DNA of 64,000 nt. It comes from Pedobacter frigidisoli (GTDB lineage: Bacteria; Bacteroidota; Bacteroidia; Sphingobacteriales; Sphingobacteriaceae). Under the pieces are notes generated by a model. The model worked only from the letters and a program-made list of their open reading frames with translations, was not told where the DNA came from and ran no database searches. How positions within the stretch are numbered: the stretch's first letter is position 1; each line of letters starts with the position of its first letter. This document shows positions 7,199-32,380 of the stretch, piece by piece. The translations under genes were made by a program, and so were the position numbers. The stretch lies in the NCBI RefSeq assembly GCF_004331675.1, contig NZ_SJSN01000008.1, positions 124,001 to 188,000 on the forward strand, given 5' to 3'.

Positions 7199-7228
7199 TT
7201 TGATTTCCCAATTCAAACACTATATTTG
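7199..7228 (+). promoter_or_regulatory. Putative promoter of histidine operon
   Basis: TTTG at 7199-7202 and TATATTTG at 7221-7228, spaced 18 bases, fit the Bacteroidota -33/-7 consensus. The transcription start would fall near 7235, about 38 bases before the His-rich leader peptide at 7273. Confidence 0.6.
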
Positions 7229-7272
7229 CCAACGCTTATCAGCTAACGTATTGATACTGGCATAAATAATTT

Positions 7273-7320
7273 ATGAAATTAACTTTGAACCATCACTTAC
7301 ATTTGCACCATCGCCAATAG
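7273..7320 (+). CDS. hisL: His operon leader peptide
   Basis: This 15-codon ORF encodes MKLTLNHHLHLHHRQ, with five histidines at positions 7, 8, 10, 12 and 13. It lies 78 bases upstream of hisG. Histidine is normally about 2% of residues, so this density directly before a his operon is the hallmark of an attenuation leader: a ribosome stalls on His codons when charged histidyl-tRNA is scarce and changes the RNA fold downstream. The stop codon lies in the loop of a hairpin (ATCGCC / GGCGAT, 7310-7325). The ORF and context are seen directly; the regulatory role is inferred from enterobacterial his attenuation. Confidence 0.8.
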   Translation: MKLTLNHHLHLHHRQ

Positions 7321-7325
7321 GCGAT
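7310..7325 (+). promoter_or_regulatory. Hairpin overlapping hisL stop codon
   Basis: ATCGCC (7310-7315), loop AATA, GGCGAT (7320-7325) form a perfect six-base-pair stem. It spans the last leader codons and the TAG. A ribosome that finishes or stalls in the leader would melt it, so it is a candidate switch element. Confidence 0.55.
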
Positions 7326-7336
7326 ATGATATGTTT

Positions 7337-7360
7337 GTTTTGTACTTCAAAACTTTTTTT
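7337..7360 (+). terminator. Attenuator-type intrinsic terminator of his leader
   Basis: GTTTTG (7337-7342), loop TACTT, CAAAAC (7348-7353), then seven T (7354-7360). The stem is short and A/U-rich but is followed at once by the U-tract, 16 bases past the leader stop and 38 bases before hisG. It is the expected place for an attenuator. Confidence 0.6.
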
Positions 7361-7398
7361 CCGTAAAATTATTTCTTGTTCATTCTATATTCAATACT

Positions 7399-8250
7399 TT
7401 GAAAACACTTAAAATTGCTATCCAGAAATCGGGTAGGTTAAACGAAAAATCCGTTGAAATATTAAAAAATTGTGGTCTTTCTTTCGAAAACTACAAGAGT
7501 TCTTTAATATCAACCGTTCAAAATTTTCCATTAGAAATTCTTTTTCTTCGGGATGATGATATTCCTGAATACGTTCAGGATGGCATTGCTGACTTGGGAA
7601 TTGTTGGGGAAAACGTGATTACCGAAACCCAAGCTGGGGTAGAATATCTACAACGTTTGGGCTTTGGAAAATGCACGCTAAAAATCGCCGTTCAAACAGG
7701 CAGTGATATCCAAAAATTAGAGGATTTAAATGGCAAGGCAATTGCTACATCTTACCCTGTAATTCTCGAAAAATTCTTAACTGAAAAAGGAATAAATTCT
7801 GATATCAGAACCATTTCTGGTTCTGTAGAAATTGGTCCAGGTTTAGGCTTAAGTGATGCCATTTTTGATATCGTTTCTACTGGCGGAACATTAAAGAGCA
7901 ATGGACTAAAACCGTTTGCAGATGTGATGCAATCGGAGGCAATATTGATTGGAAATAAATCGATATTGGATAACCCCGAAGTTGCAGAATTACTACAAAG
8001 AATTCGTTCGGTTTTAAGCGCCAAGTCAAACAAATATGTGGTACTAAATGTATCAAAAGATAACCTGCAAAAAGTTGTTGATTTGTTGCCGGGTGTTAAA
8101 AGTCCAACGGTAGTTCCATTGTTCGAACCGAACTGGGTTGCTGTTCATTCTGTTATTGCAGAGGAAGATTTCTGGGATAAAATTAACAGCTTGAAAGCTG
8201 CAGGTGCTGAAGGAATTTTAGTGATGCCAATAGAGAAAATCATCACCTAA
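7399..8250 (+). CDS. hisG: ATP phosphoribosyltransferase
   Basis: HisG joins ATP and PRPP in the first, feedback-controlled step of histidine synthesis. The 283-residue product is the long form: two periplasmic-binding-like catalytic lobes (about residues 1-205, with GRLNEKS, ADLGIVGENV and DIVSTGGTLKSNGL motifs) and a C-terminal ACT-like regulatory domain (about 210-283, with GVKSPTVVPL and GAEGILVMPIEKI). The start is TTG at 7399, giving MKTLKIAIQKSGRL; no ATG lies near. It is first in a his operon and follows a His-rich leader and attenuator. Both allosteric and attenuation control are expected. Confidence 0.96.
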   Translation: MKTLKIAIQKSGRLNEKSVEILKNCGLSFENYKSSLISTVQNFPLEILFLRDDDIPEYVQDGIADLGIVGENVITETQAGVEYLQRLGFGKCTLKIAVQTGSDIQKLEDLNGKAIATSYPVILEKFLTEKGINSDIRTISGSVEIGPGLGLSDAIFDIVSTGGTLKSNGLKPFADVMQSEAILIGNKSILDNPEVAELLQRIRSVLSAKSNKYVVLNVSKDNLQKVVDLLPGVKSPTVVPLFEPNWVAVHSVIAEEDFWDKINSLKAAGAEGILVMPIEKIIT

Positions 8251-8309: not shown

Positions 8310-9623
8310 TTGAAAATCTATAAATACAAAGATTTATCTAAATCAAAAATTGAAGAACTGTGTTCGAGACAAATTGAGGACGATAAATTGGTTGAAGAGC
8401 GTGTTGCAGGCATCATCGAAACTGTAAAAAATGATGGTGATAAAGCACTCTTTGATTTCGCAAAAGCATTTGATAAAGTAGAGTTAGAAAAACTTTTTTT
8501 AGATGCTCAGGATTTAAAGGAGATTGCGTCAACTATTCCTGCTGATGCCAAAAAAGCTATCGAAACTGCATACCAGAACATCAAAACATTCCACCAATCT
8601 CAATTAAAAACTGAAGATAAGGTAGAAACTATGCCGGGTGTAGTTTGCTGGCGAGAATCAAGGGCAATTGAAAAGGTTGGACTCTATATTCCAGGCGGTA
8701 CAGCAGTGTTACCAAGCACTTTTTTAATGCTTGCGACGCCTGCAATTATTGCCGGCTGCAAAGAAATAGTTGTATGTTCTCCGCCTCAAAGTGATGGAAA
8801 AACTAACTGCTATTTGGCTTATTGTGCAGTGCTTTTGGGCATTGAGAAAATTTACCTGATCGGAGGTGCACAAGCCATAGCAGCCATGGCTTTTGGAACT
8901 GAAACCGTCCCTCAAGTTTACAAGATTTTTGGCCCAGGCAACCGTTATGTAACCACTGCTAAAACAATGGTTCAAAACAAGGTTGCAATTGACATGCCTG
9001 CTGGTCCATCAGAGGTTTTAGTGATCGCTGATGAGACTGCTAATCCGTCATTTGTGGCTGCAGATTTACTTGCCCAAGCAGAACACGGAACTGATAGTCA
9101 GGCAATTTTGGTTTCTACCTCTAAAGAAATTTTAGAAAAAACACTTTTAGAAATTGAAAATCAGATAGCTATCTTACCAAGAAGGGAAATTGCGGCAAAA
9201 GCAATCGAAAATTCTTACGCTATTTTAGTTGAGAATTTGACTTCTGCAATGGATTTTTCGAACGAATATGCTCCTGAACACCTAATTTTGGCAACGGAAA
9301 ATTTCGAAAGCCTTATCCCAATGATAATCAACGCTGGTTCGGTATTCTTAGGAAATCTTACTCCAGAGGGCGTGGGAGATTATGCCTCAGGAACGAACCA
9401 TACTTTACCCACAAGTGGCTTTGCTAAAGCTTATTCAGGTGTTTCAACTGATGCTTTCCTTAAAAAAATAACCTTTCAACACCTATCATCCAAAGGATTA
9501 AAAAACATCGGCAATACTGTTGAAACGCTTGCAGCAGCAGAGGGCTTGCAGGCACACAAAAATGCAATTACGATTAGAAGAAGCTGGAAGTCCGAAAGTC
9601 TGAAGACCGATGATAAAAAGTAG
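8310..9623 (+). CDS. hisD: Histidinol dehydrogenase
   Basis: HisD oxidises histidinol to histidine with two NAD+ in the last two steps. The 437-residue protein has the family motifs GLYIPGGTAVLPST, IGGAQAIAAMAFGT, IFGPGNRYVTTAK and DMPAGPSEVLVIAD. The zinc and catalytic region is QAEHGTDSQ, and EYAPEHL and TNHTLPTSGFAKAYSG lie further on. The start is TTG at 8310 (MKIYKYKDLSKS). The last dozen residues (after IRRSWK) are encoded by a GTCCGAAAGTC-type repeat that recurs inverted just after the stop, so the tail is probably not part of the conserved enzyme. Confidence 0.97.
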   Translation: MKIYKYKDLSKSKIEELCSRQIEDDKLVEERVAGIIETVKNDGDKALFDFAKAFDKVELEKLFLDAQDLKEIASTIPADAKKAIETAYQNIKTFHQSQLKTEDKVETMPGVVCWRESRAIEKVGLYIPGGTAVLPSTFLMLATPAIIAGCKEIVVCSPPQSDGKTNCYLAYCAVLLGIEKIYLIGGAQAIAAMAFGTETVPQVYKIFGPGNRYVTTAKTMVQNKVAIDMPAGPSEVLVIADETANPSFVAADLLAQAEHGTDSQAILVSTSKEILEKTLLEIENQIAILPRREIAAKAIENSYAILVENLTSAMDFSNEYAPEHLILATENFESLIPMIINAGSVFLGNLTPEGVGDYASGTNHTLPTSGFAKAYSGVSTDAFLKKITFQHLSSKGLKNIGNTVETLAAAEGLQAHKNAITIRRSWKSESLKTDDKK

Positions 9624-9685: not shown

Positions 9686-9696
9686 ACCCTTTGAAC

Positions 9697-10737
9697 ATGG
9701 ATATTAACGATTTAGTTAGAGAAAATATAAAAAACCTTAAACCGTACTCTACAGCCAGAGATGAGTTTAAGGGACAAGCGTCTGTATTTTTAGATGCGAA
9801 CGAGAACAGTTATGGTTCCCCCCTACCTGCAAATTATAACCGCTATCCCGACCCTTTGCAATTGGATTTGAAAGATGCTATCAGCAAAATTAAAGGTGTT
9901 CCGATTGAAAATACCTTTTTAGGTAACGGTAGTGATGAGGCAATCGATTTGTTATTTCGTGCTTTTTGTAACCCCGGAAAAGACAACGTAATTGTGCTAC
10001 CGCCAACGTATGGAATGTATGAGGTTTCAGCCAATATTAACGATGTTGAAATTCGCAAAGTTAGCTTGCTGCCGAACTTCCAATTAGACATGGAAAAAAT
10101 TGCAGAAACGATTGATAAAAACACGAAATTAATATTCATTTGTTCGCCGAATAACCCGACAGGAAATTCGATAAATCGTGAAGATATTGAAACGATTTTG
10201 GCCAACTTTAAAGGCATCGTTGTGGTTGATGAGGCCTACATAAATTACGCCCGTCAGAAGACCTTTATTCAGGAGTTAACCGAGTACGCAAACCTGGTTG
10301 TTTTGCAAACTTTTTCTAAGGCTTGGGGGCTTGCTGCTTTGCGTTTGGGCATGGCTTTTTCTTCGAGAAAAGTTATTGATGTTTTGAACAAAATTAAGCC
10401 ACCTTATAACATCAATCAGGCTACACAAGATTTAGCTTTTGAGGCGCTAAAAAACATCGCACAAGTTAATGATTGGATTAAAGAATCTGTTGCCGAAAGA
10501 GAACGACTTTCTATCGATTTAAATGCATTGGATATCGTTACAAAAGTTTATCCATCAGATGCGAATTTTATATTAGCCGAAGTTACCGATTCTACTAAAA
10601 TTTACGACACTTTGGTTGATGAGGGAATCATTGTTCGCGACCGTTCGAAAGTTACTTTGTGTGAGGGTTGCTTAAGAATAACTGTGGGTACCAAAGAAGA
10701 AAATGATAAACTGTTAACCATTCTGAAAAATTTTTAA
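9697..10737 (+). CDS. hisC: Histidinol-phosphate aminotransferase
   Basis: HisC transfers an amino group from glutamate to imidazole-acetol phosphate. It is a PLP-dependent class I/II aminotransferase. I chose the ATG at 9697 (346 residues); a TTG two codons earlier is possible. Visible motifs are LDANENSYGSPLP, GNGSDEAIDLL, CSPNNPTGN, VVDEAYINY (PLP aspartate region), QTFSKAWGLAALRLG (Schiff-base lysine) and LRITVGTKEENDKLL. The length is usual for HisC. The gene follows hisD after about 70 bases of repeat-containing spacer and precedes hisB by three bases. Confidence 0.97.
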   Translation: MDINDLVRENIKNLKPYSTARDEFKGQASVFLDANENSYGSPLPANYNRYPDPLQLDLKDAISKIKGVPIENTFLGNGSDEAIDLLFRAFCNPGKDNVIVLPPTYGMYEVSANINDVEIRKVSLLPNFQLDMEKIAETIDKNTKLIFICSPNNPTGNSINREDIETILANFKGIVVVDEAYINYARQKTFIQELTEYANLVVLQTFSKAWGLAALRLGMAFSSRKVIDVLNKIKPPYNINQATQDLAFEALKNIAQVNDWIKESVAERERLSIDLNALDIVTKVYPSDANFILAEVTDSTKIYDTLVDEGIIVRDRSKVTLCEGCLRITVGTKEENDKLLTILKNF

Positions 10738-10740
10738 AAG

Positions 10741-11874
10741 ATGAAGAAAGTATTATTTATAGATCGCGACGGAACTTTAAATATTGAGCCGGATGATGAG
10801 CAGGTAGATAGCTTTGCGAAACTAAAATTTTATCCCCGTTCCATTTATTACCTTTCGAAAATTGCGGCGGAAATGGATTATGAATTGGTAATGGTCACCA
10901 ATCAGGATGGATTGGGAACACCATCAAATCCTGAAGAAAATTTTTGGCCAATTCATAATTTCATGTTAGATACTTTTACTGGTGAGGGTGTAAATTTTAG
11001 CGAAATCATAATCGACAGAACTTTTGCAAAAGACAACGCACCAACCCGCAAGCCTGGCACGGGTTTGCTAACAAAATATTTTAGCGGAGATTACGACTTG
11101 AAAAACTCATACGTTATTGGCGATAGATTAAACGATGTAGTATTGGCTAAAAATTTAGGTGCAAAAGCAATTTTTCTTCGTCAGAATGATGCACTTGGTT
11201 CTACCGAAGCTTTAGATAAACATGAAACTTTGTTGGATATAATCATTCTGGAAACACAAAAATGGGAAGATATTTACAACCTGCTCAAGGCTGGTAGTAG
11301 AAAAATTCATCATGTTCGTAAAACCAATGAAACGGATATCACCATCAATATAGATTTAGATGGAACAGGAAAAGCTAAAATCGAAACAGGTTTAAATTTC
11401 TTCGACCACATGCTCGACCAAATCGCCAGACATGGAAGTGTAGATTTAGAAATCATTGCCAAAGGCGATTTAGATATTGATGAACATCACACCATTGAAG
11501 ATACCGGAATTGCGCTTGGCGAGGCATTTGCCAAAGGTTTAGGTAACAAGTTAGGTATTGAGCGTTATGGTTTTTGCTTACCAATGGACGATTGTTTAGC
11601 CCAAGTTGCTATCGATTTCGGAGGTAGAAACTGGATAGTTTGGGATGCTGGATTTAAACGCGAAAAAGTTGGTGATATGCCTACTGAAATGTTTTATCAC
11701 TTCTTCAAATCTTTCAGTGATGCTGCAAAATGCAATTTGAATATTAAAGCCGAGGGCGATAATGAACATCATAAAATTGAGGCTATCTTTAAGGCTTTCG
11801 CCAAGGCGATAAAAATGGCGATAAAACGTGATGCGGAGAAAATGGTGTTGCCGAGTACAAAGGGTGTTTTGTAA
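10741..11874 (+). CDS. hisB: Bifunctional histidinol-phosphatase / imidazoleglycerol-phosphate dehydratase
   Basis: The 377-residue protein is a fusion. Residues 1 to about 165 form a HAD-type histidinol-phosphatase ([12 protein letters not shown] with nucleophile Asp8 and Asp10, [36 protein letters not shown]). Residues about 185-377 form the imidazoleglycerol-phosphate dehydratase ([59 protein letters not shown], with manganese-binding His clusters). The same fusion occurs in enterobacteria and many Bacteroidota. It starts three bases after hisC. The enzyme supplies the sixth and eighth steps of the pathway. Confidence 0.97.
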
Positions 11875-11975
11875 GATTTAAGAGAAAAATGGATGATGGA
11901 ACTTGTTTCAGGAGCTCATCGTCATTTCGACCGAAGCGGAGAAATCTTTGAACAGGTAAAGAAAACTGTTGTTAA

Positions 11976-12125
11976 ATAAACCCGATAGCAGTGGAAAGTT
12001 TTTAATCTCTGTCATTCTGAGGCACGAAGAATCTGTTTCATCGGTGGCAGATGCTTCGTACCTCAGCATGACAGCATTTACAGGGTTGCTGCAAATTAAA
12101 AAACTTGGAACGAATAGCGGGACTA
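11976..12125. repeat. Composite palindromic repeat, copy 1
   Basis: Outer flanks AAACCCGATNNNNGTGGAAA (from 11978) and TTGGAACGAATAGCGGGACT surround a core hairpin at 12009-12074 (arms CTGTCATTCTGAGG and CCTCAGCATGACAG) followed by GGGTTGCTGC. The core is bordered by inverted repeats AAGTTTTTAAT (11996-12006) and ATTAAAAAACTT (12095-12106). A second copy at 45154-45300 has the same flanks but the opposite core orientation. Confidence 0.75.
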
Positions 12126-12179
12126 CAGAGGCATTGAAAAACTGACATTCGTTTTCAAATTTATTAAAAAGCATCGTGT

Positions 12180-12213
12180 CTTGATACTCGATACTAAATA
12201 CTTGATACTAATT
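12180..12213. repeat. TTGATACT octamer cluster before hisH
   Basis: Four degenerate units of an eight-base period (TTGATACT, CGATACTA, AATACTTG, ATACTAAT phase) run directly into the hisH ATG. A near-identical 34-base cluster lies at 53424-53457, upstream of pyrC. Confidence 0.7.
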
Positions 12214-12807
12214 ATGATTGGAATAGTAAACTACGGCGCTGGCAATATTTTCTCCTTAACTTCCGCTTTAGAGCGTTTAAATTTACAATACGGCATGGTA
12301 AACACCGAGGCTGATTTAGAGAAATATAGTCACATTATCATCCCAGGCGTTGGTCATGCAGGTTCCGCAATGGAAAAACTGAAACATACTGGATTAATTC
12401 ATGCAATTAAAGCCCTTCAGAAACCAGTTTTAGGAATCTGCGTGGGCATGCAATTAATTACTGAGCATTCGGAAGAGGGTGACGCAGCTTTATTAGATAT
12501 CGTTCCAGTGAAGACAAAGAAATTCGATAAGTCGCTGAATATCAAAATCCCACACATGGGATGGAATGCGATTCAGCATAAAAACAATTCACTATTCGAG
12601 GGTGTTGAAGATAATGCACAATTTTACTTTGTTCATTCGTACTTTATTGAATATAACCCTACTTTTGACATCGCCTCTGCCAATTACGGAATAAAATTTT
12701 CGGCAGCGGTACAAAAAGACAACTTTTACGGCGTTCAGTTCCACCCCGAAAAATCGGGCAAAGCTGGCGAACAGATATTAAAAAATTTTTCAAACTTAAG
12801 CTTATAA
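12214..12807 (+). CDS. hisH: Imidazole glycerol phosphate synthase, glutamine amidotransferase subunit
   Basis: HisH releases ammonia from glutamine and channels it to HisF. I set the start at the ATG at 12214 (MIGIVNYGAGNIFSL), the usual HisH N-terminus, giving 197 residues. An in-frame TTG at 12181 would translate an octamer repeat and is rejected. The class I amidotransferase motifs are present: GVGHAGSAM (oxyanion strand), LGICVGMQL (nucleophile Cys), and the His-Glu pair in FHPEKSG. It ends two bases before hisA. Confidence 0.97.
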   Translation: MIGIVNYGAGNIFSLTSALERLNLQYGMVNTEADLEKYSHIIIPGVGHAGSAMEKLKHTGLIHAIKALQKPVLGICVGMQLITEHSEEGDAALLDIVPVKTKKFDKSLNIKIPHMGWNAIQHKNNSLFEGVEDNAQFYFVHSYFIEYNPTFDIASANYGIKFSAAVQKDNFYGVQFHPEKSGKAGEQILKNFSNLSL

Positions 12808-12808
12808 A

Positions 12809-13558
12809 ATGTACATAATTCCTGCTATTGATATTTTGGATGGAAAAGTTGTTCGCCTACGTGAGGGTGATTATAACCAGAAAACTGAATACGATGTTTC
12901 TATTGCTGACATGATAGAAAAATACCGCTCAAATGGAACAGACTTCATCCATATTATTGATTTGAATGGCGCTAAAGGTGATTTCAGTAACCAGAAATCA
13001 CTTTTCGAAATCATTAAAAAAACCGAAATGAAAGTGCAATACGGAGGGGGAATCCGTACAATTGAGCAAGTAACAAATTTACTTGATGCGGGAATTCATC
13101 GTGTTATTGTGGGTACTCAAGCGATTACCAATCCCGATTTCTTACAGCAATTAAGTGAGGCTTTTGCAAAAAAAGATAACTACGCTAATCGTATTGTTAT
13201 TGCCATTGATGTTTTGGATGAAGTGATTAAATATTCAGGCTGGATGGAAAGTTCGCCAATTAAGCTAATGGATTACGTTGACAAATGTTTAGCACTTGGT
13301 TTTTTCCGTTTCTTATGTACGGATATCAGCAAAGATGGCAAATTGGGTGGTGCGGCAATTGATTTATATAAAAAACTGTTGGAACATTCGCCTATGATTA
13401 AATTAATTGCCTCTGGTGGTGTAAGCTCAATGGAAGATATTTACGAATTAGCTAAGTTTCCAATTAGAAGTGTTGTGGTTGGAAAAGCGATTTATGAGGA
13501 TAGAATTACTATTGAAGAGATTAAAGAATGGAATTTGAAAGCTTTGACAAGCATATAA
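12809..13558 (+). CDS. hisA: Phosphoribosylformimino-5-aminoimidazole carboxamide ribotide isomerase
   Basis: HisA is the (beta/alpha)8-barrel isomerase of the fourth step. The 249-residue protein has IIPAIDILDGKVVRL with the catalytic Asp, VQYGGGIRTIEQV, GVHRVIVGT-like GIHRVIVGTQAI, the second catalytic Asp in CTDISKDGKLGG, and the phosphate-binding IASGGVSSMEDI and VVVGKAIYE. The length is typical. Its TAA at 13556-13558 abuts the C-rich end of the DUF559 cassette, which separates it from hisF by about 0.5 kb; these two genes are usually adjacent. Confidence 0.97.
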   Translation: MYIIPAIDILDGKVVRLREGDYNQKTEYDVSIADMIEKYRSNGTDFIHIIDLNGAKGDFSNQKSLFEIIKKTEMKVQYGGGIRTIEQVTNLLDAGIHRVIVGTQAITNPDFLQQLSEAFAKKDNYANRIVIAIDVLDEVIKYSGWMESSPIKLMDYVDKCLALGFFRFLCTDISKDGKLGGAAIDLYKKLLEHSPMIKLIASGGVSSMEDIYELAKFPIRSVVVGKAIYEDRITIEEIKEWNLKALTSI

Positions 13559-14055
13559 CCCCCCAGCCCCCTAAAGGGGGAGCTAATAACATGATGGAAA
13601 AGCATAGTTAAGATGACTTACAGCCTTGATGATGATTTTGAGTTTTTGCAATTCAACGAACCTAAAATGTTTTATGGCGAATCGAATATTATTTTCGAAA
13701 ATGCTAAGCAATTAAGAAACCGATTAACGGAATCTGAAAAATTACTCTGGGAGCATTTAAATGAGAAGAAGCTAGGTGTTAAATTTAGACGCCAACATCC
13801 AATTTCATTTTACATTGCTGATTTTTATTGCCATGAAGTTAAGCTTATAATCGAACTTGATGGAAGTATTCATAACCTAAGAGAAAATATTGAGAACGAT
13901 TTTGAAAGACAAAAATTATTAGAAAGCCTTGGAATAAAAGTAATCAGATTTAAAAACAACGAACTCTATAAAAATTTAAATCAAGTTTTGGAAAAAATAA
14001 AGCAAACCATACAAGAACGTACTGCAGTTCCCCCTTTAGGGGGCGGAGGGGGTTT
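13557..14055 (+). mobile_element. DUF559 endonuclease cassette with C/G-rich terminal inverted repeats
   Basis: A segment of about 500 bases is framed by a left end (AACCCCCC, AG, CCCCCTAAAGGGGG; 13557-13580) and a right end (CCCCCTTTAGGGGG, CGGA, GGGGGTTT; 14030-14055) that are reverse complements of one another apart from a few bases. Inside lies one DUF559 endonuclease-like reading frame. The cassette sits exactly between the hisA stop and the native hisF start. A gene-less relative with the same ends occurs at 56364-56483. Calling it mobile is inference; no transposase is present and no target duplication was established. Confidence 0.6.
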
Positions 14056-14806
14056 GAGTAAAAGAATAATCCCTTGTCTTGACGTAAAAGATGGCCGCAC
14101 AGTTAAAGGAATCAACTTTGTAGATTTACGTGATGCTGGCGACCCTGTAGAATTGGCTGCCCAATATGCACAGCAAGGTGCCGATGAATTGGTTTTTTTA
14201 GACATTACTGCAACTCACGAGCGTAGAAAAACAATGATTGAAATGGTTAAATCAGTTGCTCGTCAGCTGAATATTCCTTTCACCATTGGCGGTGGGATAA
14301 CAGAACTTGCAGACGCAGAGGCTTTGTTAAATGCTGGCGCAGATAAAATCAGCATCAATTCTGCAGCAGTTAGAAATCCGAAGCTAATTGAAGAATTGGC
14401 AAAAGCTTTTGGTGTTCAATTTGTGGTTTTAGCAGTTGACACTAAATTTGTTGATGGCAGAAACATGGTTCACCTAAATGGTGGAAGATTAATTACCGAA
14501 CTAGAAACTGAAATTTGGATTAAACAAGCGGAGGATTTAGGTGCAGGAGAAATTCTGCTAACTTCAATGGACCACGACGGCACAAAAGCAGGTTTCGACT
14601 GTGATTTACTGTATAAAGTAAACCAAATGATAAACATCCCCATTATTGCATCAGGTGGCGCCGGAAACATGCAACATTTTACAGATGTTTTTCAAAAAGC
14701 AAATGTTGATGCTGCACTAGCTGCATCGGTATTTCACTACGGAGAAATTTTAATCCCAGATTTGAAACAGGAATTGAAAAGGAATAATATTCCTGTTAGG
14801 ATATAA
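13613..14806 (+). CDS. hisF: DUF559 endonuclease-like domain fused to imidazole glycerol phosphate synthase cyclase (HisF)
   Basis: One 397-residue frame joins two proteins. Residues 1-140 are a DUF559 (Vsr-like, PD-(D/E)xK fold) domain with [28 protein letters not shown] and [11 protein letters not shown], and ending in [12 protein letters not shown]. Residues 141-147 (PLGGGGG region) are translated from a palindromic repeat. Residues 148-397 are complete His[17 protein letters not shown] with catalytic Asp, IGGGI, the second catalytic Asp in [14 protein letters not shown], and [11 protein letters not shown]. HisF closes the imidazole ring using ammonia from HisH. A TTG at 14054 ([10 protein letters not shown]) is probably the native hisF start, so HisF may be made alone, as a fusion, or both. 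Confidence 0.9.
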
Positions 14807-14868: not shown

Positions 14869-14952
14869 CGTCATTGCGAGGCACGAAGCAATCTTACTAC
14901 AATGGGTTTTTATAGCATATGCTTTAAGATTGCTTCGTGCCTTGCAATGACG
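14869..14952. repeat. Long REP-like hairpin between hisF and hisI
   Basis: Two 27-base arms (14869-14895 and 14926-14952) are reverse complements with a single mismatch; they begin CGTCATTGCGAGGCACGAAG and end in the mirror CTTGCAATGACG. The 30-base loop is A+T-rich. Related GAGGCACGAAG words occur in the hairpins at 12009-12074 and 45204-45268. It may attenuate or stabilise his mRNA. Confidence 0.8.
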
Positions 14953-14966
14953 AAAAAGAAACGAAA

Positions 14967-15569
14967 ATGAATATTGAAACATCATCTCTTGATTGGGATA
15001 AAACAGCTGGCTTACTTCCTATAATCATCCAAGACCACAAAACTTTAGAGGTTTTAATGCTTGGTTACATGAATGCTGAAGCATTTGAGAAAACACAAAC
15101 TGAAAGGAAAGTAACGTTCTATTCTCGCTCTAAAAATCGCCTTTGGACTAAAGGTGAAGAGAGTGGTAATTTTCTTTTTGTTAAATCTATTCATATTGAT
15201 TGTGATAACGACACCATCTTGATAAAAGCCGATGCCGTTGGACCAACTTGCCACACCGGTAGTAGAAGTTGTTTTAAAACAGATTACAATCAGAATTTTA
15301 TTTTTGAGCTAGAAAACATCATAACTGATAGATACGAAAACCCAGTTGAGGGTTCTTACATCAACAAAATGCGCAGCAAAGGCTTAAACAAAATTGCTCA
15401 AAAAGTTGGCGAAGAGGGCGTTGAAACGGTTATCGCAGCACTTGCTGAAACCGAAGAAGAACTTATTGGAGAAGCCTCAGATTTAATTTTTCACTTGCTG
15501 TTTTTATTGAAAGAGAAAGGTTTATCTATTCAAGATATTGCTAAAAATTTAGAGAAGAGACATCAATAA
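14967..15569 (+). CDS. hisI: Bifunctional phosphoribosyl-AMP cyclohydrolase / phosphoribosyl-ATP pyrophosphohydrolase
   Basis: HisIE carries out the second and third steps of histidine synthesis. I set the start at the ATG at 14967 (MNIETSSLDWDKT; 200 residues); an earlier in-frame ATG at 14937 lies in the preceding hairpin repeat. HisI (about residues 1-110) shows FYSRSKNRLWTKGEESGN and the zinc/magnesium region DCDNDTILIKADAVGPTCHTG. HisE (about 110-200) shows KVGEEGVETVIAA and the acidic cluster EASDLIFHLLFLL. It is the last gene of the his operon, separated from hisF by 160 bases of repeat DNA. Confidence 0.96.
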   Translation: MNIETSSLDWDKTAGLLPIIIQDHKTLEVLMLGYMNAEAFEKTQTERKVTFYSRSKNRLWTKGEESGNFLFVKSIHIDCDNDTILIKADAVGPTCHTGSRSCFKTDYNQNFIFELENIITDRYENPVEGSYINKMRSKGLNKIAQKVGEEGVETVIAALAETEEELIGEASDLIFHLLFLLKEKGLSIQDIAKNLEKRHQ

Positions 15570-32149: not shown

Positions 32150-32199
32150 GTTTAAGAAGTGTTTGAAAAGCAGTTGCGGTAATTTATTTTAAAGCTAGT

Positions 32200-32254
32200 C
32201 GGGCTATGCGCTGTAGCTCTGGTAGAAAAAACCAGAGGCTGCCGCTTCTATCCC
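32200..32254 (+). repeat. GGGCTAT...CTATCCC hairpin repeat, short copy
   Basis: The conserved ends CGGGCTATGCG and CTTCTATCCC enclose the hairpin CTCTGGT-N7-ACCAGAG (32217-32237). The ends match the larger copies at 60843-60949 and 62197-62306, but the stem sequence is different. Confidence 0.65.
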
Positions 32255-32380
32255 GTTTATAAAAGATGCATCTTACTACTATTTTCGGCAAATTGCAGAT
32301 CCAAACTGACGGGCATTTTGTGGCAAATGCGATCTAGCCAATCCGAACAGGTACAAATAAAATAAACCTGATGGCACGAA

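Follow-up and report, generated by a model that had tools for sequence, protein, structure and literature searches.

A conserved histidine-codon leader upstream of hisG in the Sphingobacteriaceae, with a covarying long-range helix and no credible terminator, may act on hisG translation

In E. coli and other gut bacteria a small His-rich peptide is read ahead of the histidine-making genes, and where a leader peptide controls an amino-acid operon, an intrinsic terminator is usually taken to be the output. Translational attenuators such as those of ermC and cat sense antibiotics; there, a ribosome stalled on the leader is thought to free the downstream start by refolding of the RNA. For Flavobacterium psychrophilum and the Flavobacteriaceae, clues to leader-peptide attenuation at amino-acid operons have been published, together with a conserved 5' element before hisG (PMC9723704), and histidine RNA attenuators with predicted transcription terminators and antiterminators are described for the Bacillus cereus group, Peptostreptococcaceae and Erysipelotrichales (PMC9413887). 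A His leader in the Bacteroidota is not new in principle, and the value that the original prediction saw in an instance from this phylum is partly pre-empted by these Flavobacterium findings (PMC9723704). The passages found in PMC2965389 and PMC4833913 make no mention of a hisG leader in Bacteroidota, and family-wide loss of the terminator together with a covarying zipper between leader and hisG was not found described in the open-access literature searched.

Here we analyse such a leader in a stretch of 64,000 nucleotides from Pedobacter frigidisoli (the window). Like the enterobacterial hisL leader (RF00514), it has a His-codon ORF between promoter and hisG and hairpins that hinge on the position of the ribosome; unlike hisL, it has no Rfam match and no strong terminator, it pairs over a long range with the hisG start, and its 3' hairpin has a competitor on the upstream side of the His codons, which inverts the logic. 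It shares the short multi-His leader, the predicted alternative hairpins and the lack of an RF00514 match with the attenuators of PMC9413887, which belong to a different phylum. It differs from the Flavobacterium hisG leader (PMC9723704) in that the genomes we sampled from families f3 and f4, the latter presumed to be Flavobacteriaceae, have a terminator and an antiterminator, while the window's family has neither.

All features of the locus lie on the forward strand. A Bacteroidota-type promoter, with a -33 box TTTG (7199-7202) and, after an N18 spacer, a -7 box TATATTTG (7221-7228), stands where it had been predicted; it is recognised from the sequence and from a family-wide motif count, the motif TTTG-N17..20-TANNTTTG being found ahead of 111 of 128 family leaders against a mean of 0.1 in shuffled sequences. 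Transcription probably starts a few bases 3' of the -7 box. The predicted 15-residue ORF with five histidines, MKLTLNHHLHLHHRQ, is also confirmed at 7273-7320 (ATG at 7273, TAG at 7318-7320), with His codons at 7291, 7294, 7300, 7306 and 7309, and a leader ORF with at least five His codons arose in only 8 of 20,000 shuffles of the 230-nt region upstream of hisG. The end of the ORF lies 78 nt from hisG and, as had been proposed, falls within a hairpin (P2, 7310-7325) that has the stop codon at its loop.

Behind the leader lies a complete his operon, hisGDCBHAFI. Its first gene, hisG (7399-8250), starts with TTG and encodes the long form with a HisG_C domain (PF01634, PF08029); hisD (8310-9623), hisC (9691-10737), hisB (10741-11874), hisH (12181-12807), hisA (12809-13558), hisF (13613-14806) and hisIE (14937-15569) follow, all assigned by Pfam. 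Judged by HisG, the nearest named relatives are Pedobacter species. Across the family the hisG start is nearly always TTG or GTG and seldom ATG (e.g. 7399 in the window, and loci L101-L138), as if initiation were deliberately kept weak. The hisF frame carries an in-frame, endonuclease-like N-terminal DUF559 domain (PF04480, 1.5e-34) joined by a GGGGG linker, and may represent an inserted gene read through into hisF. Two matches to the Flavo-1 RNA (RF01705) were also observed, one between hisB and hisH (11974-12128, plus strand) and one at 32193-32262 (minus strand).

We sampled the regions upstream of hisG in 90 genus members, in 40 genomes from other genera of the family and in 60 genomes from other families, and scored as a leader any short ORF lying at most 300 nt upstream of hisG in which nine codons hold four or more His. 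Such an ORF precedes hisG in 128 of the 130 Sphingobacteriaceae regions and in 37 of 49 regions from other Bacteroidota families with a similar HisG; it is found in none of the 11 regions from other-family genomes with a distant HisG, nor on the reverse strand of any sampled region, and shuffled regions gave a mean of 0.1-0.3 (0.3 for the family). In a separate check of 80 named genome records, 78 had the leader ORF. The core N-H-H-x-H-x-H-H-R hardly varies across 89 genus leaders; CAT and CAC replace each other at three of its five His positions, and the His codons are the most conserved codons of the ORF. The comparison with related sphingobacteria that had been proposed as a check thus came out in favour of the leader, the His run being kept. 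A covariance model of the leader found a single match in the window's genome (E 1.2e-16; the next at E 0.6). Rfam holds no family matching the leader region: the His_leader model RF00514 gave no match at the gathering threshold or at E<=5, and the T-box riboswitch gave no covariance-model match. This pattern of conservation gives strong support to a translated His-codon leader ahead of the his operon, and histidine sensing through its His codons is well supported.

The minimum free energy (MFE) fold of 7234-7412 is a single long rod (-29.0 kcal/mol, z -2.5), in which the leader 5' UTR and ORF pair with the region from hairpin P3 to the hisG start, with P2 (ATCGCC 7310-7315, GGCGAT 7320-7325) as the apex over the last His/Arg codons. 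At its base, helix P1a joins GTATTGA (7248-7254), upstream of the leader start, to TCAATAC (7391-7397), which stops one base short of the hisG start codon; P1c joins AAATAATTT (7264-7272), adjoining the leader ATG, to AAATTATTT (7366-7374). In the middle of this zipper, UUUGAA of codons 4-6 (7284-7289) pairs with UUCAAA (7346-7351). The latter overlaps the 3' side of P3 (GTTTTG 7337-7342, loop TACTT, CAAAAC 7348-7353), which is the stem originally taken for a terminator and is followed by a run of seven U (7354-7360). The middle of the zipper and P3 are mutually exclusive in the window, UUUGAA and GUUUUG (7337-7342) competing within 7346-7353; the suggested search for two exclusive folds thus succeeded, with these two as the competitors.

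Helix P1 was assessed by a partition-function shuffle test, with dinucleotide-shuffled 3' sequences as controls, and by swapping 3' parts between six clades. In the genus, the 5' UTR and the hisG-proximal segment form 20 expected base pairs, against 6 with shuffled 3' controls, and the shuffle test gave p<=0.1 in 42 of 43 Pedobacter representatives. The signal is weaker yet present in groups g2 (8/10), g3 (8/13) and g4 (6/13), and at chance in other families (5/37). When these parts were swapped among the six clades, own combinations gave 17.9 expected base pairs and swapped ones 8.3, the natural combination being the highest in every row and column; swapping the ORF half against the 3' half gave 16.2 and 9.3. 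The partner strands vary in sequence between genera while their complementarity is kept, and clade B has changes on both sides at four of seven predicted P1 pairs. In g2 and g3 the 3' strand is placed some 15-37 nt ahead of hisG and not on the start codon, and there a simple duplex-energy test was not discriminating, its signal being obscured by long internal loops and A/T richness. As in translational attenuators of the erm/cat type, an alternative structure over the downstream initiation region is present, namely the covarying P1; in contrast to ermC and cat, the closing helix has its 5' strand ahead of the leader ORF, and His-tRNA would serve as the signal. A 5' UTR hairpin, P0, was considered as a competitor of P1 and set aside, being no more stable than shuffled sequences (median p 0.2-0.5).

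Could the rod itself be the terminator, with the segment 7284-7351 acting before the U-run once the leader ribosome is gone, or could Rho act on the untranslated leader? The nascent transcript up to 7353 is dominated by the rod (MFE -21.9), which holds the 3' side of P3, the U-run begins within 2-3 nt of it, and the sign of the switching would be right. However, the base of the rod beside the U-run consists of six A/U-rich pairs followed by internal loops, the U-run is not conserved across the family, and P1 is left unexplained, since RNA polymerase reaches its 3' strand only past the decision point. We regard termination of this kind as unlikely, though, for the window's clade, the rod itself as terminator is worth keeping in mind.

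A classical transcription attenuator, in which 7337-7353 and the U-run form the terminator and read-through is set by a ribosome stalled on the His codons, was the original proposal. In its favour, the parts stand in the right order, most members of the window's clade have 5-7 U after the stem, and elsewhere in the phylum other families carry strong terminators and antiterminators at the same place. The His-codon cluster, the promoter and the cognate operon are indeed present, and the conserved leader upholds that half of the proposal. Termination does not hold up in the same way. The predicted U-tract hairpin at 7337-7360 exists, but the P3 stem reaches only -2.9 kcal/mol (P2 reaches -8.8 kcal/mol, and has a compensatory change from GC to AU), so that the original claim of a full set of switch parts was overstated: the listed parts are there, a credible terminator is not. 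Not one of the 128 family leaders has a terminator hairpin of -6 kcal/mol or stronger. The P3 stem is conserved, with compensatory changes from GC to CG and from UA to CG, whereas the U-run, retained in the window's clade, is broken or absent in sister clades that still have the stem, and is not kept in group g3. No segment 3' of the His codons that pairs with the 5' arm of P3 was found. When the nascent RNA was folded with ribosome positions masked, the probability of P3 was 0.04 in the free RNA and rose to 0.94 once a ribosome occupied the first His codon; stalling is thus predicted to favour P3, which as a terminator would act under starvation, the wrong sign, and the window lacks a terminator that stalling disfavours by way of an antiterminator. 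Taken together, we consider classical attenuation at this locus rather improbable.

In some clades only, the His codons CACGTACAT can pair with the loop or flank of P3, and we left this pairing uncounted. The P3 dyad was also considered as a protein-binding DNA operator; the compensatory changes and its fixed position relative to the ORF disfavour this and favour an RNA element. Elsewhere in the same genome (G000, contig C1, L202:2974-3116, minus strand) a trp-type leader ORF, MINNIHTWLWQGNSKQNCAGCV (HTWLW), lies upstream of a chorismate-binding, trpE-like gene; it is followed by a GC-rich terminator of -21.9 kcal/mol, with a complementary GCCGGC segment within the leader, and is a classical attenuator. 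Strong terminators are thus available to this organism.

Most other families of the phylum have what looks like a classical attenuator. Among 42 other-family leaders, 34 are followed by a terminator hairpin of -6 kcal/mol or stronger (median -16.3), and in 26 of these 34 the 5' arm of the terminator has a complementary partner segment following the His codons (p<=0.05). The f3 and f4 genomes have terminators of -13 to -17 kcal/mol and a 2:3 antiterminator. In f3, f4 and one f32 genome, the terminator 5' arm and loop can in addition pair with a stretch 13-30 nt ahead of hisG, as in the example CGTTTGAGTAAA/ATTTACTCAAAC; this second complementarity is significant in 10 of 34 at p<=0.05 (L157, L162-L166, L168-L170 and L187). 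It suggests, from base complementarity, a second, translational lock atop the terminator in f3 and f4 (and f32), and the double lock of these two sister families, f3 and f4, would make a natural halfway state on the path to the window's family. In f21 (L182, L185, L186, L188 and L189) the leaders have 9-11 His, often a GTG start and an ending HVH or HVVH, and lie close upstream of hisG without a strong terminator hairpin, perhaps representing another type of output.

We suggest that the locus is a histidine attenuator worked by the ribosome, and that the window's family has rebuilt its output, so that the zipper controls translation of hisG; we put the probability of this reading at roughly 0.55. 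When charged His-tRNA is low, a ribosome would stall on the five leader His codons, as their conservation implies. With no ribosome stalled, the whole leader would form one zipper, from the P2 apex down to P1, with codons 4-6 holding the 3' side of P3 in between. It would close over the start of the leader as well as the initiation region of hisG, and so repress hisG translation, perhaps with polarity on the his operon. A ribosome on the His codons would occupy the 5' half of the zipper, letting P3 form and leaving hisG more open. To our knowledge, Shine-Dalgarno sites are not used in the Bacteroidota. Initiation in Bacteroidetes is tuned by structure from -20 to +20 (PMC6847099).

Equilibrium folding exposes the weak point of this mechanism. 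In the window, the unpaired fraction of the hisG start region rises only slightly, from 0.56 in the free RNA to 0.57-0.61 with a stalled ribosome; P1 is mostly lost in the window for stalls at His codons 3-4, persists under stalling in several other clades, and is largely removed in all clades only by a ribosome that is starting on the leader or waiting in a queue there. Kinetics or the bulk of the ribosome would have to supply the remainder of the opening. The small predicted change in hisG accessibility would also fit a leader that senses histidine but uses P1 and the zipper for mRNA stability or for stopping repeated leader translation, and P1 does cover the leader's start region at least as fully as that of hisG. 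In every clade, nonetheless, hisG is preceded at a short distance by the 3' strand of P1, and an independent helix in f3 and f4 targets the same place, and we believe that a role apart from hisG translation is improbable. That the leader ORF merely delivers ribosomes to hisG, without sensing histidine, can be practically discounted: reinitiation from leader genes can boost downstream translation (PMC4833913), but the 78-nt gap is too far for the 10-14 nt reinitiation peak given there, His richness is phylum-wide, and the most conserved codons are His, with synonymous CAT/CAC changes.

In this leader a sensor conserved across the phylum has been kept, while one family has no credible terminator and has gained a covarying long-range structure. 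We tentatively propose, at slightly less than even odds, that in this family the terminator was lost and the zipper came to control translation of the his operon through ribosome stalling, with the double lock of f3 and f4 as the intermediate. A switch from transcriptional to translational output would thereby be testable in non-pathogenic laboratory Bacteroidota, and traceable along the species tree.
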